Assembly: GCF_016924755.1 (NCBI RefSeq)
Contig: NZ_JAFFJX010000008.1
Span: forward strand, 62,001-126,000
Direction: 5' to 3'
Source of the DNA: Longitalea arenae
GTDB lineage: Bacteria > Bacteroidota > Bacteroidia > Chitinophagales > Chitinophagaceae
DNA length: 64,000 nt
In this document: in pieces, positions 14,078-20,193 of the stretch
Numbering within the stretch: position 1 is the first letter of the stretch
How the letters are laid out: the number at the start of each line of letters is the position of its first letter
Notes under the pieces: model-generated
The model's input: only the letters and a program-made list of their open reading frames with translations
Database searches by the model: none
Told to the model about the DNA's origin: nothing
Made by a program: the position numbers and the translations under genes

Positions 14078-14770
14078 ATGTCAGTATCCGGTTCAGAGAT
14101 CAAAGTTGCTGTAGACGCCATCGTGTTCGGGTATTCTAAGAACGAAGGTGTATCTATCTTGCTTATTCAACGGAAGTATCCGCCCTTCAAAAATTCATGG
14201 GCGATACCGGGCGGTTTTGTACTGCCGGAAGAGTCGCTGGAAGACGCAGTTCGCCGCGAATTGCGGGAAGAGACCGGGATTGAAGTAAATTACCTGGAAC
14301 AGTTATATACGTTTGGCGATCCTGATCGCGATCCGCGCAAAAGGGTGATCTCCGTTGCCTATTTTGCATTGGTAAAAAGCAGCCAGTTTCAGCAATTGAA
14401 GGCCAGTACTGATGCCGAGAATGCACAATGGTTCAATTTCAAATCCCTGCCGCCGCTGGCATTTGATCATAAGAAGATCCTGAACCTGGCCATCGAGCGG
14501 GTGCGCACCAAGATCCGCTATCAGCCGATCGGTTTTGAACTACTCGACCGTAAATTCCCGTTTGCCGACCTGGAAAAGCTCTATGTTAGTTTGCTTGACC
14601 GCGAAATAGACCGGCGTAATTTTTATAAAAAGGTAATGGCCCTGGGCATTCTTGATGAAACCGATGAGCTGGCAAAAAGTGAAGGCAAAGGCCGGCCAGG
14701 CAAAATGTACCAGTTCAATAAAAAGCGCTACCAGGAATTGGTGAAAGAGGGGATTAATTTTGAGATATAA
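14078..14770 (+). CDS. nrtR: NrtR-type Nudix transcriptional regulator
   Basis: I start at the ATG at 14078 (MSVSGSEIKVAVDAIVFGY), giving 230 residues, the usual NrtR length; a GTG at 13994 would add 28 residues with no match to the family. Residues 10-150 form a Nudix domain with an intact Nudix box GGFVLPEESLEDAVRRELREETG. The C-terminal part (about 155-230) is the NrtR winged helix: DLEKLYVSLLDREIDRRNFYKKVMALGILDET...GRPGKMYQF. NrtR proteins repress NAD genes and release DNA on sensing ADP-ribose or related products. The NAD operon begins 640 bp downstream with two palindromes that suit a dimeric repressor. NrtR relatives in Bacteroidota can control sugar genes, but the context favours NAD. 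Confidence 0.85.
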   Translation: MSVSGSEIKVAVDAIVFGYSKNEGVSILLIQRKYPPFKNSWAIPGGFVLPEESLEDAVRRELREETGIEVNYLEQLYTFGDPDRDPRKRVISVAYFALVKSSQFQQLKASTDAENAQWFNFKSLPPLAFDHKKILNLAIERVRTKIRYQPIGFELLDRKFPFADLEKLYVSLLDREIDRRNFYKKVMALGILDETDELAKSEGKGRPGKMYQFNKKRYQELVKEGINFEI

Positions 14771-15053
14771 AATATTTGCTGGCGCAACGCGGCATCTTAC
14801 ACCGGAAGTACAATAAGCGATGAACGCCATTGGATAGGTTTAGTTACTTGATGTATGTAACCTTTGACACCAGTTACATTCTTAATACACGTTGTAGCCT
14901 TTCCTGGTCTGTTCAACTGAACATCGGGAACTTCGATCGATGGTGGCAGATGGTAGCCATTGCTGCTGCTGTTGTTAGCGTCAAAACCTTCTAAGGATCA
15001 GCGCTCTGTCGCTCTTGCTGGTTACTGCTACGTAATCGGCCAGTTCGTCGTAA

Positions 15054-15206
15054 ATAGTTTTTAGCATACCGTTTATAGCTCGAAAAGGTGCCTGAAGAGT
15101 TTGTGGCGTACAGTTTCGAGCTCGAAACCGGCCTCTAAGAGTTTGTGACGTATGGTTTATAGCTCGAAGCGGGTCGTTAATAGTTTTTAGCGCATTGTTT
15201 AAAATT
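15054..15206 (+). repeat. 42-bp tandem repeat, about 3.6 copies
   Basis: Units at 15054-15095, 15096-15137 and 15138-15179 are each exactly 42 bp, followed by a partial unit from 15180. Each begins AKAGTTTKTRGC/ACG and contains GTTTATAGCTCGAA or a close variant. Identity between units is imperfect. No frame stays open through the array on either strand, so it is not obviously coding. It fills much of the 638-bp gap between nrtR and the NAD operon. Confidence 0.8.
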
Positions 15207-15335: not shown

Positions 15336-15360
15336 ATTTTGCGTTTGTTTTACGCAAAAT
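15336..15360. promoter_or_regulatory. Putative NrtR operator 1
   Basis: A perfect 9-bp inverted repeat: ATTTTGCGT at 15336-15344, spacer of 7 bp, ACGCAAAAT at 15352-15360. Its right edge touches the -33 TTTG of the operon promoter. The core TTTGCGT-N7-ACGCAAA recurs in operator 2. Assignment to NrtR is inferred from the adjacent regulator gene and the NAD genes downstream. Confidence 0.75.
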
Positions 15361-15391
15361 TTGGATAATCCAATGGCGCGTTATAAATTTG
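15360..15391 (+). promoter_or_regulatory. Promoter of the NAD salvage / ADP-ribose operon
   Basis: TTTG at 15360-15363 and TAAATTTG at 15384-15391 match the Bacteroidota -33 and -7 boxes with a 20-bp spacer. Transcription would start near 15398, giving a leader of only about 10 nt before the ATG at 15409. The two palindromes at 15336-15360 and 15388-15408 flank and overlap it, so bound repressor would block it. Confidence 0.65.
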
Positions 15392-15408
15392 CGTATAAAT
15401 AACGCAAA
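15388..15408. promoter_or_regulatory. Putative NrtR operator 2, abutting the start codon
   Basis: A perfect 7-bp inverted repeat TTTGCGT (15388-15394), 7-bp spacer, ACGCAAA (15402-15408). It overlaps the -7 box and predicted start site and ends one base before the ATG of the NadM-Nudix gene. Its centre is 50 bp from that of operator 1, close to five helical turns, which would suit cooperative binding on one face of the DNA. Confidence 0.75.
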
Positions 15409-16308
15409 ATGAAAGCAACTGGTGTTATTATAGCAAGGTTTCAAACCCCTTACCTGCACGACGGACATAAATATTTGTTGGATGAAATTCGTTCCAAACA
15501 CAATAAAGTAGTGGTGGTGCTGGGCGTATCGCCGGTAAAAGGCAGCCGCCGCAATCCATTCGATTTTTATACCCGTGAGCGTTTATTAAAACAATATGCC
15601 CCTGAATTGATGGTATTGCCCCTGAGCGATCATCCTTCCGATGAAACCTGGAGCAAACAGTTAGATACGCTTCTGCAAAATACCTTTCCGCAGGAATCGT
15701 TTATACTCTACGGCAGCCGCGACTGTTTTATTCCTTATTACAGCGGGCATTTACAGGTAGTGGCCTTGCCGGAATTTGGCGAATATTCCGCTACCGCTAT
15801 CCGGAACGAAAATAGCGACAAGGTATTGGATACGACAGATTTCAGAATGGGCGTTAACTATGCTTACCAGAACACGTATTCAAAGGTCTATCCTACTGTT
15901 GATATCGCCGTTTTGAAGGACAACGATACGCAGCTCTTGTTAGGCAAAAAGAGTAATTCGCCCCAATGGCGTTTTCCGGGAGGTTTTGCAGATCCGACAG
16001 ATGCGGATTATGAAGCGGCTGCCCGCCGTGAGCTGCAGGAAGAATGTGGCGATATCGAAGTGAGTGCTATGCAATATGTGGGTTCTGCCAAAATAGATGA
16101 CTGGCGATATCGTTCTGAGGAAGATAAGATCATTACTATGTTCTTTAAGACCCAATGGGTATTTGGCCAGGCGCAGGCCAACGACGATCTGAAAGAACTG
16201 GCCTGGTTCCCGGTACGGGAACTTTCATCAATGATGCAACAGGGAACCATTGCCAAAGAACACCATGTACTGGTAAACCTGTTATTGAAAAACCTGAACA
16301 TATTATAA
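15409..16308 (+). CDS. nadM: Bifunctional NMN adenylyltransferase / Nudix hydrolase
   Basis: A 299-residue protein. Residues 1 to about 165 are an NMN adenylyltransferase domain (NMN + ATP to NAD+ + PPi): ARFQTPYLHDGHKYLL with HxGH at 17-20, SPVKGSRRNPFDFYTRERLL, and YSATAIR near the end of the domain. Residues 180-299 are a Nudix domain with a Nudix box ending RRELQEECGDI (one residue longer than the consensus in the first loop), likely an ADP-ribose pyrophosphatase. This architecture is known from Synechocystis, Francisella and vibriophage KVP40. It is the first gene of the operon, with an operator touching its ATG; nadV follows after 43 bp. Confidence 0.92.
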   Translation: MKATGVIIARFQTPYLHDGHKYLLDEIRSKHNKVVVVLGVSPVKGSRRNPFDFYTRERLLKQYAPELMVLPLSDHPSDETWSKQLDTLLQNTFPQESFILYGSRDCFIPYYSGHLQVVALPEFGEYSATAIRNENSDKVLDTTDFRMGVNYAYQNTYSKVYPTVDIAVLKDNDTQLLLGKKSNSPQWRFPGGFADPTDADYEAAARRELQEECGDIEVSAMQYVGSAKIDDWRYRSEEDKIITMFFKTQWVFGQAQANDDLKELAWFPVRELSSMMQQGTIAKEHHVLVNLLLKNLNIL

Positions 16309-16351: not shown

Positions 16352-17791
16352 ATGAAAACGCAGGAGAACATTGTCTTACTGGCCGACGCCTATAAATATT
16401 CTCACCATAAATTATACTATCCCGGAACGACAAAGATCTATTCTTATCTCGAAAGCCGCGGTGGACAATTCAATGAAACCATTTTTTTCGGGCTGCAATA
16501 CTTTTTAAAATATTATCTCGAAGGCAATGTGATCACCAAAGAAAAGATCGATGCGGCCGAAACATTTTTAACGCAGGTATTTGGCAGAACCGATGTGTTT
16601 GACCGCAGCAAGTTCGATTACATTCTGAAAAAATACAATGGGCGTTTACCCGTTCGCATCAAAGCGGTGCCCGAGGGAACCGTAGTACCGGTAAATAATG
16701 TCTTAATGACGATTGAAAATACCGATCCGGAATGTTTCTGGTTATCAAACTTCCTCGAAACCCTGTTGATGCAGGTCTGGTATCCCTGTACCGTAGCTAC
16801 TGTTTCCCGGGAAGTGAGAAAGATCGTGGAAGAGTATTTCGAAGAAACTGCGTCAGAAGCGTCAAAAGCGGCTATTGATTTCGTATTGAACGATTTTGGA
16901 TTCCGGGGCGCCAGTTCTGTAGAAAGTGCCGGCCTGGGCGGTGCGGCCCACCTGATCAATTTCATGGGCAGCGACACCCTGATGGGCAGTGTTGTAGCAC
17001 AACGCTATTACGAGGCGCAGAAAGTCTACGGCTTATCGGTGCCCGCAACCGAGCACTCGGTTTGTACCCTGTTGGGCGAAGAAGGCGAACTGGAGATCTT
17101 CAAACATATCCTGAGAACCTTTCCAACGGGTATCGTAGCCTGTGTGTCTGACTCATTCGACATTTTCAGGGCCTGCAGTGAATACTGGGGCACTGAATTA
17201 AAAGACCTGGTATTAGGCAGGGATGGCGTGCTGGTGATCCGGCCAGACAGTGGTGATCCTGTATTTACCTTATTGCGGGTATTCGACATCTTGTTGAACA
17301 AGTTCGGTTATACGATCAATGAAAAAGGATACAAAGTATTGCCACCCCAGGTGCGTGTATTACAGGGCGATGGCGTTAATGTGCAGGCCATCCGCAGTAT
17401 TTACGGGGCATTGAAAGTAAATGGCATCAGTGCAGAGAACCTGCTGTTGGGTATGGGGGGCGCTTTATTGCAAAAGGTGGACAGGGATACGCAGAAGTTT
17501 GCTTTTAAATGTTCTTATGCCGAAGTAAGTGGCAAGCCGGTAGATGTGCAAAAGCACCCGGTTGAAGTAGATGCACATGGTAAACTGGTGCAATCATTCA
17601 AAAGATCAAAAGCCGGACAGTTAAAATTGATCCGCACCGATGCCGGCTATCAAACGGTGAGAAAAGAAACATCACCCGGTTATGAAGACCAGATGATCAC
17701 CGTATTCGAGAATGGAGAAATTATCAATACCAACAGTTTCGAAGAGATCAGGGAAAGAGCGGTGGTTGCGAAAGAGGTGCAGTTAATGTAG
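16352..17791 (+). CDS. nadV: Nicotinamide phosphoribosyltransferase
   Basis: A 479-residue NAMPT/NadV protein that makes NMN from nicotinamide and PRPP, the first step of two-step NAD+ salvage. The N-terminus LLADAYKYSHHKLYYPGTTKIYSYLESRG, the DFGFRGASSVESAGLGGAAHLINFMGSDT block, the catalytic His in PATEHSV (H235) and VIRPDSGDP (R297, D299) all match human NAMPT. Length is typical. Its product NMN is the substrate of the NadM domain encoded just upstream. The PARG-type gene starts 16 bp after its stop. Confidence 0.95.
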   Translation: MKTQENIVLLADAYKYSHHKLYYPGTTKIYSYLESRGGQFNETIFFGLQYFLKYYLEGNVITKEKIDAAETFLTQVFGRTDVFDRSKFDYILKKYNGRLPVRIKAVPEGTVVPVNNVLMTIENTDPECFWLSNFLETLLMQVWYPCTVATVSREVRKIVEEYFEETASEASKAAIDFVLNDFGFRGASSVESAGLGGAAHLINFMGSDTLMGSVVAQRYYEAQKVYGLSVPATEHSVCTLLGEEGELEIFKHILRTFPTGIVACVSDSFDIFRACSEYWGTELKDLVLGRDGVLVIRPDSGDPVFTLLRVFDILLNKFGYTINEKGYKVLPPQVRVLQGDGVNVQAIRSIYGALKVNGISAENLLLGMGGALLQKVDRDTQKFAFKCSYAEVSGKPVDVQKHPVEVDAHGKLVQSFKRSKAGQLKLIRTDAGYQTVRKETSPGYEDQMITVFENGEIINTNSFEEIRERAVVAKEVQLM

Positions 17792-17807: not shown

Positions 17808-18635
17808 ATGAATCAAGCTAAAAGAAAAGCAATAGCAGAAGATACATTACAGATCTTAGAAAAAGGATTTTATACTAATAGACGAGGCGAAAAAGTAGAT
17901 CTGGCTCTTATTCAAAAGAAAGCAGAAGAGAATACCCGCTTGTTCAGGCCGCAGGAATTGGATGAATTACTGGACAGGCTGAAGAAAGATAACAGCTTTG
18001 AAACGAAATATGAAGTGACCAATGAAACCACGCTCGATGCGGCGCGCCGTTTGGCAGCAGAAGGCGTACAGCATATCATGTGCTTGAATTTTGCTTCGGC
18101 GAAGAATCCCGGCGGTGGTTTTTTGGGTGGCGCCCTGGCGCAGGAGGAATGTATTGCACGGGCAAGCGGTTTGTATCCCACCCTTCTGCAGGCGGCAGCA
18201 TATTACGAATACCACCGCATGCATAGGAGCGGTTTGTACTCTGACCATATGATCTATTCACCCGGCGTGCCTATCATTAAAGATGAAGGCGGACTTGAAC
18301 TGGATGAACCGGTATGTATCAGTATCGTTACTGCTCCGGCCGTAAATGCAGGTGTTATCAAAAGAGATGATGGTGGCAGCACCGATAAAATAATCCCTGC
18401 AATGAAGGCGCGAATCGAAAAATTGTTAGCACTCTGTATGCACTACCGCCATACTACCCTGATACTGGGCGCCTGGGGATGCGGCGTATTCCGTAATGAT
18501 CCCGATATGATAGCCGGATTATTCCACGAAGCGTTGACCGGGCCATTTGCTAACCAGTTTGACCGGGTTTTGTTTGCGGTTAAGACGAATAAGGAAGAGA
18601 TCATTGAACCGTTTGCGAAGAGGTTCAGGAATTAA
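17808..18635 (+). CDS. TIGR02452 family protein, bacterial-type poly(ADP-ribose) glycohydrolase macrodomain
   Basis: A 275-residue macrodomain protein. The PARG signature is visible as NPGGGFLGGALAQEEC: GGG at 102-104 and QEE at 112-114, with E113/E114 as the expected catalytic pair. IVTAPAVNAG and LILGAWGCGVFRNDP are further macrodomain motifs. Enzymes of this type release ADP-ribose from ADP-ribosylated targets. It lies between nadV (16 bp) and the ADP-ribosylglycohydrolase gene (58 bp). An ATG 7 bp upstream in another frame leads to a 6-codon frame and is not the start. Confidence 0.9.
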   Translation: MNQAKRKAIAEDTLQILEKGFYTNRRGEKVDLALIQKKAEENTRLFRPQELDELLDRLKKDNSFETKYEVTNETTLDAARRLAAEGVQHIMCLNFASAKNPGGGFLGGALAQEECIARASGLYPTLLQAAAYYEYHRMHRSGLYSDHMIYSPGVPIIKDEGGLELDEPVCISIVTAPAVNAGVIKRDDGGSTDKIIPAMKARIEKLLALCMHYRHTTLILGAWGCGVFRNDPDMIAGLFHEALTGPFANQFDRVLFAVKTNKEEIIEPFAKRFRN

Positions 18636-18693: not shown

Positions 18694-19638
18694 ATGAAAG
18701 TAACCCCCGTTCACGGCGCATTGTTTGGCGTAGCCATCGGTGATGCATTGGGCGTACCGGTAGAAATGATAAAGCGGGATGTGTTGGCGCAAGACCCCGT
18801 TAGGGATCTTGTAGGCTATAAACAACATAATCAACCAGCCGGCACTTTTTCTGATGACAGCTCCCTCACTTTTTGTCTGGCCGAGTCATTGTGCAACGGA
18901 TACGACCTGCATGATGTCGGAGAACGGTTTGTAAAATATTTCTTTGAAGCATACTGGACGGCCGGTGGTGTTGTGTTTGGTGTTGGTAAAACAACAGAGA
19001 TCGCAATAACAAAGTTAAGGGATGGCGTTTCACCCGCTGACTCAGGCAACTACGATGAAGGTTGCAGTGGCAATGGTTCATTGATGCGTATTCTTCCTTT
19101 GTTATTTTATGTGATGGACTTTGAAATAGAAAAGCGCTATGAAATAACCAGGGAAGTGGCCTGCATAACACATGGAAGCATGCAAACGATATTGCCTTGT
19201 TTTTATTACCTCGAGTTTGCGCTCGAACTCTTACAGGGCAGCCAGAAGCAAATGGCATACGACAATACCGCAAAAACAGTTGCTGATTTTTTGGCAGGCA
19301 GCAGCCTTGGTGAGCAGGCCAGGAATGTATTAACACCACTGCTTTTCGAGGATATAACAAAGCGAAGCAGCGCGTCCATTCTAACGACCCATCAGGCGGT
19401 TCTTACCATCCAGGCAGCTATGTATTGTTTTATGCAAACAGACAATTACAGCGACGCCGTTTTAATGGCCGTGAATATGGGTGATGACACTGATACCACC
19501 GCTGCCGTAACCGGAGGTTTGGCCGGTTTGTACTATGGATTTGAATCCATTCCCGAAAAATGGAGAAAAGAAATTAAAAGAAGTAATGAGATCCATGACC
19601 TTTGCGACCGGCTCTCTAAGGCCATGGGTTTAACATGA
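18694..19638 (+). CDS. ADP-ribosylglycohydrolase family protein (DraG/ARH type)
   Basis: A 314-residue all-helical ARH-type protein. GVAIGDALGVPVEM opens the fold, TFSDDSSLTFCLAESL (D54, D55) and NMGDDTDTTAAVTGGLAGLYYG near residue 270 provide the binuclear metal ligands of the family. It hydrolyses ADP-ribose-protein, ADP-ribosyl-nucleic acid or O-acetyl-ADP-ribose bonds; the exact substrate cannot be read from sequence. It is the fourth gene of the NAD operon, 12 bp before kptA. Confidence 0.92.
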   Translation: MKVTPVHGALFGVAIGDALGVPVEMIKRDVLAQDPVRDLVGYKQHNQPAGTFSDDSSLTFCLAESLCNGYDLHDVGERFVKYFFEAYWTAGGVVFGVGKTTEIAITKLRDGVSPADSGNYDEGCSGNGSLMRILPLLFYVMDFEIEKRYEITREVACITHGSMQTILPCFYYLEFALELLQGSQKQMAYDNTAKTVADFLAGSSLGEQARNVLTPLLFEDITKRSSASILTTHQAVLTIQAAMYCFMQTDNYSDAVLMAVNMGDDTDTTAAVTGGLAGLYYGFESIPEKWRKEIKRSNEIHDLCDRLSKAMGLT

Positions 19639-19650
19639 GGATTATTTTTT

Positions 19651-20193
19651 ATGGAAAAACAAATAAAAAATATTGGTAAATTTTTGAGCCTGGTGCTGCG
19701 TCATGAGCCGCAACATATGGGACTCACGCTTAATGAGGAAGGCTGGGCCAGCGTGCCGGAACTGATCGAAAAATTCAATCAAAGAGGCGTACGACTCGAT
19801 TTTGCCATGCTGCAACTGGTAGTAGATACGAACGACAAAAAGAGGTTTTCTTTTAATGAAGATAAAACCCGCATCAGGGCCAGCCAGGGTCACACTGTTG
19901 AGGTTGATCTGAATCTGCCAGAACAAACACCTCCGGAATTTTTATATCATGGCGCCGCCGATAAATACATAAACGCCATCCGCCAGCATGGCCTGCAAAA
20001 GATGAAAAGGCACCATGTGCATTTGACGGCTGATATCGAAACCGCCCGCCAGGTGGGACAACGCCGTGGCAGGCCGGTAATTCTGGTAATAAAGGCATTG
20101 GCCCTGCATGAGCAGGGACATAAATTTTATTTGTCGGCCAACGGCGTATGGCTGACTGATTTTGTGCCGCCCGCATTTATATTGTTCGAGTAA
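19651..20193 (+). CDS. kptA: RNA 2'-phosphotransferase (Tpt1/KptA family)
   Basis: A 180-residue KptA protein. It shows LSLVLRHEPQHMGLTLNEEGWASVPELI, KKRFSFNEDKTRIRASQGHT, LYHGAADKYINAIRQHGLQKMKRHHVHLT and VGQRRGRPVILVIKA. The Arg-His-Arg-Arg residues of the family (RHE, RASQGH, HHVHL, RRGRP contexts) are present. Tpt1 enzymes move a 2'-phosphate from RNA to NAD+, giving ADP-ribose 1'',2''-cyclic phosphate and nicotinamide. Being in an operon with NadV (recycles nicotinamide) and ADP-ribose hydrolases fits this chemistry. In bacteria the physiological substrate is uncertain; ADP-ribosylation of nucleic acid ends has also been reported for the family. Confidence 0.93.
   Translation: MEKQIKNIGKFLSLVLRHEPQHMGLTLNEEGWASVPELIEKFNQRGVRLDFAMLQLVVDTNDKKRFSFNEDKTRIRASQGHTVEVDLNLPEQTPPEFLYHGAADKYINAIRQHGLQKMKRHHVHLTADIETARQVGQRRGRPVILVIKALALHEQGHKFYLSANGVWLTDFVPPAFILFE

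Follow-up and report, generated by a model that had tools for sequence, protein, structure and literature searches.

A pair of predicted NrtR operators fused to the promoter of an NAD-salvage and ADP-ribose-processing operon in Longitalea arenae and other Bacteroidota

Two exact copies of the palindromic core TTTGCGT-N7-ACGCAAA, 50 bp apart and separated by a 29-bp gap, are present at the promoter of a group of NAD and ADP-ribose genes in the window, that is, the whole stretch of Longitalea arenae DNA analysed here (64,000 nucleotides). We consider it very likely that the two palindromes are operators for the NrtR-type regulator encoded nearby, and that dimers of this protein keep the promoter closed until they are released by ADP-ribose or a related ligand. 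Predicted operator site 1 (15338-15358; TTTGCGTTTGTTTTACGCAAA) ends 1 base before a -33-like TTTG (15360-15363, forward strand), whereas the first TTTG of predicted site 2 (15388-15408; TTTGCGTATAAATAACGCAAA) is also the end of a -7-like element, TAAATTTG (15384-15391, forward strand; form TAnnTTTG). The ATG of the first gene, nadM, follows site 2 at position 15409 with zero gap. Promoters of Bacteroidota conform to a -33/-7 consensus in which TTG is followed, about 19-21 nt on, by TAnnTTTG; the window promoter has this form, with the TTG at 15361-15363 and a 20-nt spacer. A scan for the sigma-70 pattern (TTGACA/TATAAT) returned 2 sites, against 2.2 expected, and none beyond chance, as would be the case for a promoter of the Bacteroidota type. 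From the position of the -7 box, the nadM leader, put at about 10 nt in the original prediction, would be about 11-13 nt long. The original prediction, made from the letters of the window, was right in placing two sites with the same core at this spacing and in stating that site 2 overlaps the -7 box and ends at the ATG; site 1, said to touch the -33 box, is adjacent to it, but one base lies between them.

The regulator gene, nrtR (14078-14770, forward strand; start set at the ATG at 14078), lies about 0.6 kb upstream of the operators on the same strand and codes for a protein with Nudix and NrtR winged-helix domains. Both Pfam matches, to NUDIX (1.9e-24) and to NrtR_WHD (9.8e-19), pass the cut-off, and the closest solved structure in the PDB is that of BtAraR (5e-48), with NrtR of Shewanella oneidensis also matched (2.1e-27); these matches agree with the NrtR type assigned to the neighbouring gene. 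The NCBIfam equivalog model for the ADP-ribose-responsive repressor aligns at 4.4e-41 but far under its cut-off (141 vs 400 bits). Downstream of the operators, all on the forward strand, are genes for a NadM-like NMN adenylyltransferase fused to a Nudix domain (15409-16308), the adenylyltransferase half of which matches its family model weakly (Pfam CTP_transf_like, 6.2e-4, under cut-off), a nadV-like nicotinamide phosphoribosyltransferase (16352-17791), a microbial-type PARG (17808-18635; TIGR02452), an ADP-ribosylglycohydrolase (18694-19638) and the RNA 2'-phosphotransferase KptA/Tpt1 (19651-20193). The genes from nadM to that for KptA are probably transcribed as one unit. No site was found in front of nrtR in the window, which therefore gives no sign of nrtR autoregulation. 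The region between nrtR and the operators contains three imperfect 42-nt direct repeats, 70-73% identical (15053-15200). In a congener (G071; locus L249, 682-3254) the corresponding stretch exceeds a spacer by about 3 kb and contains several unrelated ORFs; the interval thus seems, from this locus, to be open to insertions.

Throughout the genome (7,284,291 bases, 7.28 Mb) the exact core occurs twice, both times at this locus, and copies with 1 mismatch are absent. With 2 mismatches allowed, 28 further copies appear, for a total of 30; since the reversed-pattern control yields as many (33), these matches are noise, and we rejected them as real sites. Within the window, matches with up to 3 mismatches number 3, against 4.88 expected, which is not beyond chance. 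The signal in the window is thus the two perfect copies side by side.

Among 147 genomes of the family, the exact core was found 29 times, in 19 genomes, and the reversed pattern 7 times. Of the 29 cores, 26 lie within 1.5 kb of homologues of nrtR, nadM or nadV, one precedes, along with a second near-copy, a Band_7 gene of the same regulon (L208), and two (G089, contig C14, and G062) are near none of the 12 query genes. The recurrence foreseen upstream of orthologous nadM and nadV genes is supported: homologues of the NadM-Nudix protein are encoded in 14 of the 147 genomes, and an operator pair precedes all 14. Ten of these pairs fit TTTGYGT-N7-ACRCAAA exactly at both sites, and the other four carry 1-2 mismatches in total; the true core is this wider form, rather than TTTGCGT-N7-ACGCAAA as initially noted. 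In the 14 pairs the spacing is 50-53, the -7 element is TAAATTTG or TATATTTG, and the distance from a TTG to this element is 19-21 nt. In 13 of the 14 operons site 2 runs directly into the ATG; in the remaining one (G006) an in-frame ATG is 3 nt further, the alignment-based start being 9 nt later. NrtR matches as such (E<=1e-10) are widespread, in 121 of the 147 genomes, many of them being paralogues near 40% identity. Twenty of the 21 genomes that encode an NrtR of at least 50% identity also contain a site differing from the wider consensus by no more than 1 mismatch; the best site in the exception, G103, has 2 mismatches.

Across the phylum, 392 genomes were scanned for pairs of TTTGYGT-N7-ACRCAAA with a gap of 26-36; 15 contain an exact pair, and the reversed control gave none in any of the 392. 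All 15 are among the 39 phylum genomes with a close NrtR (E<=1e-60). As 13 of the 15 belong to a single genus code (g108), however, they are not independent, and the number of events is smaller than the number of genomes. An exact pair was lacking from 24 genomes with a close NrtR; for 17 of these the locus was fetched and counted, and 13 showed a pair with 1-2 mismatches in total, three a single exact site and one, G274, no site within 1.5 kb. No pair arose in 95 mononucleotide-shuffled loci. A scan of 84,980 species revealed at least 118 loci with a pair; of 80 titles of the matches listed, 79 belong to Bacteroidota of many genera and the remaining one to Enterovibrio calviensis. Flavobacterium johnsoniae (L149) is among the species in which a pair was found. 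Where at least 1 kb of upstream sequence was available (91 pairs among the matches listed), NrtR is encoded on either side of the pair in 82, and is absent from the stretch examined in nine. One apparent viral carrier of the pair, a 58-kb IMG/VR contig (L191), was set aside: its NrtR and that of a Bacteroidales genome from sheep rumen (L114) differ at a single residue, so that the contig is probably bacterial DNA.

The fusion of site 2 with the -7 box is a property of the pairs at large. We collected 121 pairs (the listed matches of the species scan, the viral scan and the window) and, leaving out 10 that lacked an ATG between -2 and 40 nt, two that were ambiguous and one duplicate (L191), obtained 108 oriented, unique pairs. 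Among these matches listed, 103 of 108 pairs have TA at positions -4 and -3 of site 2, which completes TAnnTTTG through the TTTG of the operator, versus 35 of 108 at site 1, and a TTG is found 18-21 nt upstream of the TA in 98 of 108. After removal of similar spacers (n=47, again from the matches listed), the TA is present in 44 of 47 pairs at site 2 versus 12 of 47 at site 1, and the TTG in 41 of 47 versus 4 of 47 at a control offset. The pair from Enterovibrio (L115), the sole gammaproteobacterial one, is among the five of 108 listed without the TA, as expected of a bacterium with another promoter type. The pair pattern permitted spacings of 47-57; those found among the matches listed were 50 (4 pairs), 51 (7), 52 (58), 53 (22), 54 (15), 55 (1) and 57 (1), with 95 of 108 at 52-54, and the 50 bp of the window is at the short end of the range. 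The mode, 52 bp, corresponds to about five helical turns, the window spacing to a little less.

The genes behind the pairs are more varied than NAD-salvage genes. First genes were chosen among candidates up to 200 nt from a pair in either direction and clustered by BLAST, with Pfam names assigned from 1-2 members per cluster; for the matches listed, the clusters are prs-like (74), NAMPT (14), NadM/NrtR (13) and Band_7 (10), followed by three clusters of two each (ADP-ribosylglycohydrolase, a nucleoside-deoxyribosyltransferase-like protein, and an 840-aa unrelated protein 121-123 nt off) and six single proteins. Downstream on the same strand, in the 58 listed pairs with at least 4 kb of sequence, we found prs in 46, nadV in 37, and a gene for ADP-ribosylglycohydrolase in 25, KptA in 21 or PARG in 6, any of these three being present in 35. 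A pair directly precedes nrtR itself in four Bacteroidales loci and in L191. The expectation that the palindrome would recur before nadM and nadV only therefore stands as to its presence there but not as to its exclusiveness, and we rejected a nadM/nadV-only element on account of the prs, Band_7, ADP-ribosylglycohydrolase, nucleoside-deoxyribosyltransferase-like and nrtR targets. The Band_7 (SPFH) gene is directly behind NrtR-type sites in two family genomes (L208 and L213) and behind at least 10 pairs of the species scan.

These arrangements suggest how the switch may work. An NrtR dimer on site 2 would cover the TTTG of the -7 box and reach the start codon, and a second dimer on site 1, against the -33 element and about five helical turns off, would occupy roughly the same face of the DNA, where the two may cooperate. 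Together they would exclude RNA polymerase and keep the NAD-salvage and ADP-ribose-processing operon off. When NAD is split, ADP-ribose (or a related ligand) would accumulate and release NrtR; NAD could then be remade from nicotinamide by NadV and NadM, and ADP-ribose adducts and RNA ends would be dealt with by PARG, ADP-ribosylglycohydrolase and KptA. In other bacteria ADP-ribose releases NrtR, but the Corynebacterium relative NdnR responds to NAD and not to ADP-ribose (PMC4666351; PMC6800001), so that the ligand of the window system may be one or other of such compounds.

There is a slim chance that another regulator, either an AraR-like NrtR paralogue or an unrelated NAD-sensing factor, binds the palindromes, with nrtR a mere neighbour. 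The same genome does encode two NrtR paralogues of about 40% identity (C1:186215 and C2:91921), and nrtR is 0.6 kb away and itself lacks a preceding site. However, no site with up to 1 mismatch is present in the 7.5 kb around either paralogue, a close NrtR homologue accompanies the exact pair in all 15 phylum genomes that have it, and in many relatives the sites directly flank nrtR. Moreover, R179 and R206 of the DNA-binding domain do not vary among the 133 NrtRs that are site-linked or above 50% identity, whereas eight other paralogues mostly have lysine there (K in five, R in two and N in one at position 179; K in six and R in two at position 206). In a tree of 141 unique NrtRs, 120 of these 133 fall into one clade free of other paralogues (support, 0.63), and 13 site-linked sequences are outside this weakly supported clade. 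We regard it as improbable, too, that NrtR is an activator, or that its roles are split, with site 1 activating and site 2 repressing. Site 1, just upstream of the -33 element, is in a position open to activators, but site 2 spans the -7 TTTG to the ATG in the window and should block polymerase, and the characterised NrtRs named in PMC4666351 and PMC6800001 are repressors. Finally, it is scarcely credible, and has mostly been refuted by the controls, that the palindromes are a by-product of the AT-rich composition of promoters or function as an RNA element once transcribed. The sequence is indeed AT-rich, and in the genome single degenerate matches are no commoner than chance, but the reversed pattern gave 7 versus 29 single sites in the family and 0 versus 15 genomes for pairs in the phylum, shuffled loci gave no pair, and site 1, upstream of the promoter, would not be transcribed from it.

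As predicted operators, the sites resemble those of Mycobacterium NrtR, GTTTTCGA-N7-TCGAAAAC, at which ADP-ribose disrupts binding: in both, the palindrome has a 7-base centre and neighbours nrtR and NAD genes, and the regulator combines Nudix and winged-helix domains. In the Mycobacterium case described, however, the half-site is another one and a single site lies between nrtR and nadABC (PMC6800001), whereas here a Bacteroidota-type promoter has a site on each side, one of them sharing bases with its -7 box. With BtAraR of Bacteroides, as described in PMC4666351, the system shares the NrtR family, the phylum and 21-bp semipalindromic sites, often two per promoter; BtAraR differs in that it controls arabinose genes, with a gap between sites of 3 bp or 42 nt instead of the 29 bp found here before NAD genes, and in its degraded Nudix signature, the residues of which are kept in the window NrtR (PMC4666351).

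The Nudix signature of the window NrtR is indeed complete (GFVLPEESLEDAVRRELREETGI). Matches with internal stops or under 180 aligned residues were removed before counting. Among the 128 unique NrtRs near a site, 120 retain the RE and EE residues, 85 of them being full at all seven positions checked and 35 having the last Gly changed; the other eight are altered, seven of them losing more than one residue class. The state of this signature is a trait described for the family and does not define membership of it. Of 13 NrtRs without a nearby site, six keep RE and EE and seven do not. A second group of NrtRs, at 44-49% identity and with a degraded signature (L050-L052, L054-L056, L219-L221), mostly has a single site of the same type before nrtR, with nadV-like and prs-like genes following in several; L052 is without an exact site nearby. 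Characterised NrtRs have lost Nudix catalytic residues that the site-linked NrtRs mostly retain; the signature is described as impaired in NAD-type NrtRs (PMC4666351). NuhA of Streptococcus sobrinus, with an intact motif, hydrolyses ADP-ribose, and restoration of the motif restored activity to S. suis NrtR (PMC12735969), but reversal of the motif did not do so for Mycobacterium NrtR (PMC6800001). Hydrolysis of ADP-ribose by the NrtRs studied here is plausible, judging from their conserved residues.

The retained Nudix centre is a more novel lead than the operator motif. Rodionov and co-authors reportedly described, in 2008, NrtR regulons for NAD, pentose and phosphoribosyl-pyrophosphate genes, including prs and NAD-salvage targets, and are said to have found lineage-variable NrtR motifs and release by ADP-ribose. 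Our literature search found no printed form of this operator, but its scope excludes that 2008 study and RegPrecise, and earlier publication is possible.

What emerges is an ordinary type of gene switch, here unusually clear and readily testable, with a precise operator and promoter map for a predicted NAD-controlling NrtR in Bacteroidota. Besides NAD salvage, the predicted regulon takes in KptA, ADP-ribosylglycohydrolase, PARG and a membrane-type protein with a Band_7 domain. Should NrtR also hydrolyse ADP-ribose, the sensor would be using up the very signal that it detects. We offer, as a tentative and rather doubtful extension, that NrtR both senses and hydrolyses ADP-ribose, that the freed operon rebuilds NAD and clears ADP-ribose marks and RNA-end damage, and that the whole is a self-resetting NAD-damage switch, whose conserved output module in Bacteroidota would be the promoter with two operators and a fused -7 box. 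Were this true, the alarm would fade as its inducer is consumed, and the switch may serve in the response to NAD-cleaving or ADP-ribosylating toxins or phage-defence enzymes.
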